Part shown: positions 2,700 to 13,326 of the stretch, in pieces
Layout: every line of letters begins with the position of its first letter
How positions within the stretch are numbered: the first letter of the stretch is position 1
Assembly: GCA_902630945.1 (NCBI GenBank)
Contig: CACOWV010000001.1
Location: 1-64,000 of the forward strand
Reading direction: 5' to 3'
Length of the DNA stretch: 64,000 bases
Source: an uncultured Pelagibacteraceae bacterium
GTDB lineage: Bacteria; Pseudomonadota; Alphaproteobacteria; Pelagibacterales; Pelagibacteraceae
The notes under the pieces: generated by a model
The model's database searches: none
What the model saw: the letters and a program-made list of their open reading frames with translations, nothing else
Told to the model about the DNA's origin: nothing
Translations under genes and position numbers: made by a program

Positions 2700-2927
2700 T
2701 TAGATATTTGATGTATTAGATAAAATTTCTTTATTAATACTTTGAGATTTTGCAAAAGCTGCTCTCTCTGAACTTAAAGTTCCAAATTTTGCAATAAATT
2801 TATTTTTTTCTTTATTATGTTGAATTTTAGTTACAACATAAAGTAAAGAAAAACTGATAAGAGTGAATAAAAATGCGGACCAAACATAAAGTCCATATCC
2901 ATTCATTATTAAAATTTTATCTATCAT
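2700..2927 (-). CDS. ccmD: Heme exporter protein CcmD
   Basis: Small single-TM protein [19 protein letters not shown] between ccmC and ccmE. Confidence 0.82.
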
Positions 2928-3631
2928 AATCTATCTAAACCCTTATTTTTTATTTTTATCAGTTCTGTATTATATTTCATTAAAAAAATTAACAGAGAAA
3001 ATAGAGCAAATGCCGCAGTCATAATCAATAATGGATATAACATTGAAATATGAATTGATGATTTAGATAAAATATTTATTGAGGCGGGTTGATGTAATGT
3101 ATTCCACCAATCTACAGAATATTTTATTATTGGCACGTTTATAATGCCCAATATTGTAATAATTGATGTAACTTTAAAAGCTTTGTCATCATTGTCATAA
3201 ATTCTCCATGCAATAAGATAAATAATATAAAACAATGCAAGAATTAACATAGACGTTATCCTTGCATCCCAAGCCCACCATGTGCCCCAAGTTGGTTTAC
3301 CCCAAATTGATCCAGTAACAAGTGCAATAACACTAAATACAAATCCAGAAGGTGCTAAACTTTTTGATATTAAAAAAAAATTTCTTATTTTAAATGTATA
3401 TCCAACTAAAGACAAAAATGTGATAACAGAAAAAGTTCCAAGGCAAATCCAAGCGGCGGGCACATGAACATACATAATTCTAACTGAATGACTTTGCTTA
3501 TAATCTTCAGGAGATAAAATTAATGCTTCAGTTAACCCAATAGAGAGAATTATAATAAATAATAATAGGACATATTTTGGTGCCCTAGATGTGATGGAAA
3601 AAATTTTATTTGGTTCAAAATATTTAAACAT
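2924..3631 (-). CDS. ccmC: Heme ABC transporter permease CcmC
   Basis: WGTWWAWDARITSMLIL motif; YVHVPAAW; operon context. Confidence 0.96.
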   Translation of the reverse strand: MFKYFEPNKIFSITSRAPKYVLLLFIIILSIGLTEALILSPEDYKQSHSVRIMYVHVPAAWICLGTFSVITFLSLVGYTFKIRNFFLISKSLAPSGFVFSVIALVTGSIWGKPTWGTWWAWDARITSMLILALFYIIYLIAWRIYDNDDKAFKVTSIITILGIINVPIIKYSVDWWNTLHQPASINILSKSSIHISMLYPLLIMTAAFALFSLLIFLMKYNTELIKIKNKGLDRL

Positions 3632-3684
3632 TTATATTTGCTATTTTAAATGAATTTAATAATTTTATTAGGAAATAATTGTCT

Positions 3685-3741
3685 GATCAAGAATGTCAGA
3701 GGGAGATAATAACGAAGGGTAAATATTTAACATCCTTGACC
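3685..3741 (-). ncRNA. Candidate structured leader or intergenic RNA hairpin between hspQ and ccmC
   Basis: Minus-strand GGTCAAGGATGT (3741-3730) pairs with ACATTCTTGATC (3696-3685): 12 bp with two G-U pairs, 33-nt loop; flanked by two TAAATATTTAAC repeats (3720-3731, 3749-3760). Confidence 0.4.
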
Positions 3742-3810
3742 AGAATTATAAATATTTAACAAACTGCTGTGTCAAAGTTTTGAGCTAAATGTGTTGAAAA
3801 GATGTTTTTT

Positions 3811-11829: not shown

Positions 11830-12780
11830 ATGAAACTTATGAGTTTAAACAAATTCAGTTTTATAATTAACAAGTTTGATACGATTGATCAATCTGAAAT
11901 CGCTAATACCATAATTAATAATATAAAGATTAAAAAGAAAAAGATAATTGATTACTTTCCAGATACAGAAAGTAATTCTGACTATAGGGCTGTAAAAGGA
12001 ATGCAAAATGATCCCAGGTTTTATCAAAGAAGTGATACTTTACATAATTTTATTTTAAAATTTTTGGGGAATGAGAATTATAATGGATTAATAACAGAAC
12101 AAGATATCCAAAACTCAATCAAAGATGATGTAGTAGATCCTAATGCAAAAGATTATAAAGATTTTGAAGAATTTTGGTTTGAATTGAATAATGATCGAGC
12201 CGGTTTAGAATCCTGTGTTTCAACAAGTAAAGACATACAAAAATCAATAATTGAGAGATGTGAAGAAGCGGGTGATTTTATAAAAGATCAAATGGCAAAG
12301 CATTGGATTAGAGATGCAAAGAGAGAACATCACAGAAGAGTAACTATGGATTTAGATACCAATTTTTCACCTGCCCTTAAAAATTCTGATGATATTGCAA
12401 ATCTTGTTGAAATTATATCTAAGCATATGCGTATAAGTAATGTTGGTTTTAAAGATACAAAAGAACTAATTATACAGAAATCTATAGCTGCTAAAATCTT
12501 CAGAAAACTCATAAAAGAAAAAATAAATATAAGTATTAAAAAAAAGGTAGAAGATTATAGTTTTAGTCATAAATTTGATGGAAATCCATCATATCTTGAT
12601 TTTGATGTGACTGTGTTCTCAGACTACTTAATTTATTTTGGAGATAAAGTTATACAAAAAAGAGAGGCAAAAAAATTAATTACCTATGAAGAGGCAAAAA
12701 AAACGTTCTTGGATAAGCTTTATAATGACGTTACTGGAAAGTTAATGTTTGATAATAATTCTAAAACTGATCAAGTCTAA
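11830..12780 (+). CDS. Hypothetical protein, no family recognised
   Basis: Intact 316-aa ORF rich in Lys/Ile/Asp; contains DAKREHHRRVTMDLDTNFSPALKNSDD. Confidence 0.75.
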   Translation: MKLMSLNKFSFIINKFDTIDQSEIANTIINNIKIKKKKIIDYFPDTESNSDYRAVKGMQNDPRFYQRSDTLHNFILKFLGNENYNGLITEQDIQNSIKDDVVDPNAKDYKDFEEFWFELNNDRAGLESCVSTSKDIQKSIIERCEEAGDFIKDQMAKHWIRDAKREHHRRVTMDLDTNFSPALKNSDDIANLVEIISKHMRISNVGFKDTKELIIQKSIAAKIFRKLIKEKINISIKKKVEDYSFSHKFDGNPSYLDFDVTVFSDYLIYFGDKVIQKREAKKLITYEEAKKTFLDKLYNDVTGKLMFDNNSKTDQV

Positions 12781-12880
12781 TCAAATCCTTTTAAATTTTC
12801 ACAAGTTTTTCGCAAGTTAAAAAAAGAATTAACCCATAACTATCAATATTCGCAAATACTTATTTTTAAAAAAATAACTA

Positions 12881-12909
12881 TTTTATCCTCATGACCACAG
12901 AGGATAAAA
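12881..12909. repeat. Perfect inverted repeat/hairpin H1
   Basis: TTTTATCCTC (12881-12890) - ATGACCACA - GAGGATAAAA (12900-12909). Confidence 0.85.
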
Positions 12910-12916
12910 CAACCAA

Positions 12917-12971
12917 TGGTAAGCTCGGACCTCTGTCCCGTCTATCTTTCTTTCATTATCCGAGCTTACCA
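12917..12971 (+). promoter_or_regulatory. Perfect inverted repeat/hairpin H2 in the leader of the nuclease operon
   Basis: TGGTAAGCTCGGA (12917-12929) and TCCGAGCTTACCA (12959-12971), 13/13 bp, 29-nt pyrimidine-rich loop; directly upstream of an SD and ATG at 12985. Confidence 0.8.
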
Positions 12972-12984
12972 AAAGGAGATCTAA

Positions 12985-13326
12985 ATGATCAATATAAAAA
13001 AGCTACCTGCAGTTATTCCATTACCTGCAGATATTAGTGAAGAAATCAAAAATGGTAAACAAGAGGAAACGCTAGATGTTAATATACAAACAGTAGCAGT
13101 TCCAAAAGCAATCATGTCAGAACCAGATATGTGGATGCCTCAGCTTTTTAATAAGATTGAAAAAGCTTTTGCACCAAAGCTGGGTTATGAAAATCAAAAT
13201 AAACTGGCTATCACTTTACCTCTTATAAGAGAAATAAGGGGAGATTATAAATCTGAAAAAGTGATGGTATCAATTATTGCAGTTGATGTTTCACCTGTCA
13301 TCAAAGAGGAGGCTATATATGAATAA
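12985..13326 (+). CDS. Hypothetical protein, first gene of accessory nuclease operon
   Basis: 113-aa ORF with AAAAGGAG SD 6 bp upstream of ATG; overlaps next gene by 8 bp. Confidence 0.75.
   Translation: MINIKKLPAVIPLPADISEEIKNGKQEETLDVNIQTVAVPKAIMSEPDMWMPQLFNKIEKAFAPKLGYENQNKLAITLPLIREIRGDYKSEKVMVSIIAVDVSPVIKEEAIYE

Follow-up and report, generated by a model that had tools for sequence, protein, structure and literature searches.

Organization of the nuclease cassette

The window (the whole 64-kb stretch of DNA that was analysed, which comes from a SAR11 genome of the Pelagibacteraceae) carries gene 1, a leader and an operon coding for the small protein p113, a GIY-YIG nuclease and a PD-(D/E)XK nuclease (Table 1). 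The start of the GIY-YIG gene overlaps the end of the p113 gene by 8 nt. Related cassettes are present in SAR11 contigs L012–L020 and in further Pelagibacteraceae genomes, with the order gene 1, leader of 100–200 nt, ~110-aa protein (p110), GIY-YIG nuclease and, optionally, PD-(D/E)XK nuclease. The AlphaFold model of p113 has a pLDDT of 77, and no PDB fold matched it at E ≤ 0.001. PADLOC found no defence-system signature in the cassette; it returned generic Cas4-like matches for the PD-(D/E)XK protein and weak ones for one GIY-YIG protein. A phage origin was considered and rejected, the PD-(D/E)XK protein and two GIY-YIG proteins matching no phage record. With its constant nucleases and hypervariable first gene, the cassette looks like a conflict system.

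Table 1. Coordinates of the cassette genes and leader elements in the window
Feature	Position	Strand	Remarks
Gene 1, 316 aa	11830–12780	+	no confident family
Hairpin H1	12881–12890/12900–12909	+	10/10 paired, 9-nt loop; overlaps and competes with S1
S1 5' strand, ACAGAGG	12897–12903	+	pseudoknot
Loop L1, ATAAAACAACCAA	12904–12916	+	A-rich; similar to ATATTAACCC/ATAAATTAACCC of L013/L018
S2 5' strand, TGGTAAGCTCGGA	12917–12929	+	5' arm of H2
S1 3' strand, CCTCTGT	12930–12936	+	opens the H2 loop
Loop L3, CCCGTC..CTTTCTTTCATTA	12937–12958	+	pyrimidine-rich; kept in type-A leaders
S2 3' strand, TCCGAGCTTACCA	12959–12971	+	3' arm of H2; terminates against the SD
SD, AAAAGGAG	12971–12978	+	first A shared with the last base of H2
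SD core, GGAG	12975–12978	+	6 nt ahead of the ATG at 12985
p113	12985–13326	+	small protein, no known family; a ~103–124-aa family at that place in every cassette
GIY-YIG nuclease, 232 aa	13319–14017	+	fold match to the UvrC GIY-YIG domain
PD-(D/E)XK nuclease, 235 aa	14026–14733	+	Cas4-like; only in argG/photolyase-region cassettes

A pseudoknot adjoining the SD

A preliminary description of the leader had reported two hairpins, H1 and H2, the second ending directly against the SD, and an exact complementarity between the H2 loop and a segment spanning the loop and 3' arm of H1. Each of these elements was verified, coordinates and letters alike: H1 is fully paired, H2 is paired at 13/13 positions around a 29-nt loop, CCTCTGT is the exact complement of ACAGAGG, and H2 meets the SD at 12971. 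No terminator-like site was found, and none separates the RNA from the operon. The 7-bp ACAGAGG/CCTCTGT helix (S1) and the 13-bp stem (S2) form the core of an H-type pseudoknot. In the S1+S2 fold the SD core is unpaired and the pseudoknot leaves the SD unburied; pairing of the SD with a complementary TTTCTTT within loop L3 is optional.

A promoter scan of positions 12700–13100 gave a single promoter-like site, which lies on the minus strand and does not exceed chance expectation. Two other candidate features of the leader were rejected. A leader peptide might be encoded by the 48-codon frame that begins with the ATG at 12891; this frame has no SD and is lost in L013 and L018. The longest guide-like match of the leader elsewhere in the 64-kb window is 11 nt, equal to that obtained with shuffled sequences.

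The folding strength of the leader was compared with chance in several ways. The minimum free energy of 12861–13000 is −36.6, against −17.4 ± 3.3 for dinucleotide shuffles (z = −5.8; 0 of 200 as good). H2 is the sole perfect hairpin of at least 13 bp with a loop of at most 40 nt in the 64-kb window, and shuffling the 140-nt leader produces a hairpin of this kind in ~0.1% of cases. A mechanical search for crossing stems returned exactly S1+S2 as the best pair (−41.9 versus −18.6 ± 3.4 for shuffles, z = −6.8), and 58 control regions, each lying upstream of an ORF of 150 aa or more in the window, gave a mean z of −0.3 (sd 1.3) in this search. One control was an outlier (z = −5.8; 3632–3771, minus strand, upstream of ORF 2924–3631). 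It consists of repeated TTAAATATTTA palindromes ahead of a ccmC-like gene and probably represents AT-rich repeats, not a pseudoknot.

H1 is a different matter. Perfect hairpins of at least 10 bp with a loop of at most 20 nt occur at 11 positions in the window, so that H1 alone is weak, hairpins of 10 bp being not rare in its AT-rich DNA. Among the leaders compared, H1 was found only in that of the window and in the near-identical L012; it is absent from L013, L018 and L017.

Compensatory changes in type-A leaders

Four independent leaders of the same layout (type A) were available, namely those of the window, L013, L018 and L017, the leader of L012 being nearly identical to that of the window. 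S1 (7–8 bp) and S2 are kept in all four with different sequences, S2 being reduced to just 6 bp in L017. L013 and L018 have other sequences in both stems, which are nevertheless fully paired. The compensatory changes that one would look for in the 13-bp stem and in the 7-nt pairing are therefore present in both S1 and S2. When strands were swapped between leaders, the native pairing was the best of all 24 permutations for each stem. The crossing-stem search gave −43.2 for L013 (z = −6.4) and −38.9 for L018 (z = −5.9), and RNAalifold applied to the four leaders chose S1 unaided, together with the TTTCTTT/SD pairing.

This last result bears on a bistable switch, in which closed S2 with a free SD would alternate with formed S1 and TTTCTTT paired to the SD, H1 competing with S1 in the window and in L012. 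The RNAalifold pairing in four type-A leaders fits such a device, as do the overlap of H1 with S1 and the presence in L018 of another competitor, GGAAGC/GCTTCC. However, S2 alone amounts to about −20 to −23 kcal/mol in the window, L013 and L018, so that the alternative state would require assistance; an SD can pair with any pyrimidine tract, and no such tract was seen in the type-B leaders described below; and H1 is not conserved. We consider a switch of this kind unlikely, and an H1/pseudoknot switch was rejected as a conserved feature because L013, L018 and L017 keep the pseudoknot without H1. The preliminary description had proposed a cis-regulatory RNA with either mutually exclusive or pseudoknotted folds. 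The pseudoknotted form is strongly supported by the compensatory changes in S1 and S2, the existence of an RNA family and the fixed position relative to the SD; the case for mutually exclusive folds rests on H1, which is not the conserved feature, and is weak.

Loss of the stems in homologous leaders, which would speak against the preliminary interpretation, is seen in part. The same search detected no clear pseudoknot ahead of the homologous operons of L014 (z = 0.0), L015 (−2.4), L016 (−0.5) and L020 (−0.6), whereas others keep it; in L019, L047 and L101 any pseudoknot at the right place is weak at best. The operon can thus exist without the pseudoknot, or it bears a structure that escapes this search.

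Type-B leaders and covariance model searches

Thirteen further cassettes have a leader of another layout (type B), made up of an outer hairpin (P1), a pseudoknot and an inserted hairpin (P2). P1 carries one strand of the pseudoknot, the partner strand lies just 5' of the SD, and P2 stands between them. Types A and B are alike in their H-type order (5' strand 1, 5' strand 2, 3' strand 1, 3' strand 2, SD), which does not imply homology. RNAalifold found no structure in the 13 sequence-aligned type-B leaders because their stems share little sequence, and an alignment-free swap test was therefore used instead. The native pseudoknot pairings reached −16.7, against −10.3 ± 0.96 for permuted ones, and 0 of 100 000 permutations attained the native energy for the pseudoknot, for P1 or for P2; since the 13 sequences are partly dependent (e.g. 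L053/L054 and L049/L050), this count is no exact probability, and the effect is large.

The segments for the swap test were set by eye, a bias that does not affect the search against shuffled sequences or the covariance model in the same way. In the former, L053 (z = −5.7), L054 (−4.2), L087 (−3.9) and L099 (−3.5) stood out, and in the clear cases the best crossing stem ended, on its 3' side, 12–26 nt ahead of the ATG. A covariance model trained on seven type-B leaders (R1) matched six held-out ones (L048, L049, L050, L051, L054 and L099) exactly at the leader position, with E-values from 3.6e-5 to 0.014, and nothing convincing turned up elsewhere in 349 kb. Across 18 entire genomes that bear the cassette, R1 produced 13 matches at E ≤ 0.05, one per genome, all 13 in the cassette leader and none before metabolic genes. 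With the type-A model, a search of the window's genome yielded the known leader alone, and 110 further genomes yielded a single leader, also one already known. The leader pseudoknot is almost certainly a real, selected RNA structure, its fold being retained in relatives in which nearly all paired bases differ.

These results also bear on a DNA-level element, which could be an operator for a regulator encoded by gene 1 or a hairpin serving recombination or replication. Several gene-1 proteins of other cassettes begin with an XRE-like helix-turn-helix, the element is flanked by gene 1 and the operon, and inverted repeats are common operators. Against this, the complementary strands cross (S1 with S2, P1 with the pseudoknot) while their sequence changes freely, which is the signature of an RNA; wobble pairs occur and the loops are conserved. 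Moreover, the distance to the SD is near-fixed, arms 29 nt apart are atypical of a helix-turn-helix operator, and the element is not at the cassette ends. The suggestion, made at the outset, that the repeats act as an operator or as recombination or replication sites consequently finds no support, and we regard a DNA-level role as very improbable.

Insertion sites and exchange of modules

Cassettes occupy a few intergenic hotspots, namely the argG/photolyase region, the mnmE–mnmG spacer, a recA/tolC-like interval and the fabI–pnp interval. The mnmE–mnmG spacer holds a ~2.5-kb cassette in L064 and is empty (~50 nt) in ten relatives of the same genus (L109–L118), so the cassette at that site is an insertion.

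Gene 1 is hypervariable (15–35% identity in most pairs), and in L012/L013, L019/L020 and L048/L049 it is nearly unrelated even though the GIY-YIG proteins are 98–100% identical. It has the look of a swapped module for specificity or immunity. The window and L012 share 96% identity in gene 1, 97% in the leader and just 77% in the GIY-YIG protein; L012 and L013 share 99% in the GIY-YIG protein, 68% in the leader and 24% in gene 1. In the mnmG group the leader is 72–91% identical, versus 20–40% for p110 and 29–66% for most GIY-YIG pairs, protein identities there being mostly under 55%. Given these mismatches in identity, the leader behaves as a discrete exchanged module, which makes the simplest model, with p110 as the sole reader of the operator, less likely.

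The sequence type of the GIY-YIG protein tracks the insertion site, with p110, leader and gene 1 exchanged. Such a site-linked pattern would be as expected for a homing-type nuclease or for recombination through the right flank.

Proposed role of the leader

We favour, as the more probable reading, that 12897–12978 is an H-type pseudoknot acting as a cis translational operator of the p113/GIY-YIG/PD-(D/E)XK operon. Once folded, with or without a bound ligand, the pseudoknot would limit or gate loading of the 30S subunit, so that a potentially dangerous nuclease might be made only at a low level or under some condition. Because the p113 and GIY-YIG genes overlap by 8 nt, regulation at the first SD can extend to the nuclease. 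The ligand would more likely be a product of the cassette, such as the GIY-YIG or gene-1 protein, than a host metabolite, since the RNA was never found outside the cassette. Several observations sit uneasily with such an operator: no clear pseudoknot precedes the operon in L014, L015, L016 and L020, S2 has just 6 bp in L017, the SD is left unburied by the pseudoknot itself, and type A comprises four independent sequences. An operator specific for p110 is further disfavoured by the better conservation of the mnmG-group leader relative to p110 and most GIY-YIG pairs.

That same conservation would be accommodated if the RNA acted in trans, binding the nuclease or p113 in the manner of a type III antitoxin or of a scaffold. 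The RNA could then be a subunit of the cassette, a trans-acting pseudoknot restraining or directing the GIY-YIG nuclease within an undescribed modular SAR11 conflict system whose gene 1 is rapidly swapped. An H-type pseudoknot beside a nuclease gene, in single copy and exclusive to the cassette, is in line with this. However, ToxIN-like type III toxin–antitoxin systems differ from the SAR11 arrangement, where the leader holds no tandem pseudoknot repeat and no terminator separates the RNA from the operon. The nuclease has a GIY-YIG fold, unlike the ToxN/AbiQ toxins, p113 has no fold match, and abutment on the SD in the clear-pseudoknot cassettes would be needless for a trans-acting RNA. We hold trans action to be unlikely, and the same goes for its elaboration into a cassette subunit.

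Comparison with known RNAs

The SAM-II, SAM-V and preQ1 riboswitches of alphaproteobacteria are small pseudoknots adjoining the SD. The SAR11 leader differs from them in that no Rfam 15 family, these and others included, matched it in E-value or gathering mode, and in that it never stood before metabolic genes in the searched genomes.

Pseudoknots serve as translational operators in T4 gene 32 and in rpsO (PMC3014915). In T4/T2 gene 32, the pseudoknot is placed 67 nt ahead of the start codon, where it nucleates the cooperative binding of gp32 over an AU-rich tract (PMC3014915). It resembles the SAR11 leader as an H-type pseudoknot in the 5' leader of a DNA-metabolism gene, upstream of the RBS, and repression of translation by a bound protein, as in gene 32, is one form that our model can take. 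In contrast, S2 of the SAR11 leader lies directly against the SD, and no homology of p113 to ssDNA-binding proteins is established. Escherichia coli rpsO (S15) likewise has a pseudoknot in its translational operator, but its ligand is a ribosomal protein and its sequence and gene context are unrelated.

RNA structure ahead of a nuclease gene is shown or suspected to limit translation of I-TevI, Aeh1 mobE, segB and seg43(25), the last having, as a candidate limiter, a very stable hairpin just upstream of the RBS and not over it (PMC2988022). The SAR11 leader shares with these homing-endonuclease hairpins the position of a structured RNA ahead of a nuclease gene, which is of the GIY-YIG type in the cassette and of the GIY-YIG or HNH type among homing endonucleases. 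Those, however, are simple phage hairpins that mostly sequester the SD, whereas the SAR11 element is a covarying pseudoknot in bacterial cassettes with an additional gene 1 and p110, and its S1 and S2 helices do not cover the SD or the start codon.

We found no description of the cassette or of the RNA among the literature sources searched, and the parts consulted of a survey of structured RNAs in P. ubique (PMC2704228) describe no such RNA. Pseudoknot leaders are a known kind, while this RNA family and its cassette appear to be undescribed in searchable sources. Very probably, the leader represents a regulatory RNA family that is new and linked to a single mobile nuclease cassette. It would add to the most abundant marine bacteria a family with clear covariation and an exclusive link to that cassette, and the RNA is small enough to be testable in a laboratory host.

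Other arrangements of related nuclease genes

Among 399 genomes of the genus, 19 carry distant relatives of the PD-(D/E)XK nuclease (L024–L042; ~27–32% identity), without the p113 and GIY-YIG genes of the cassette. In L072 (2576–6242) a GIY-YIG relative lies between genes for proteins of 436 and 563 aa, a pair that is NurA–HerA-like by eye only. At the fabI–pnp site of L071 (3535–3921), and also in L055, a partial second copy of the 3' half of fabI (128 codons) directly precedes a lone GIY-YIG gene, beside a complete fabI; this partial copy may be the trace of an insertion accompanied by repair of the target gene.
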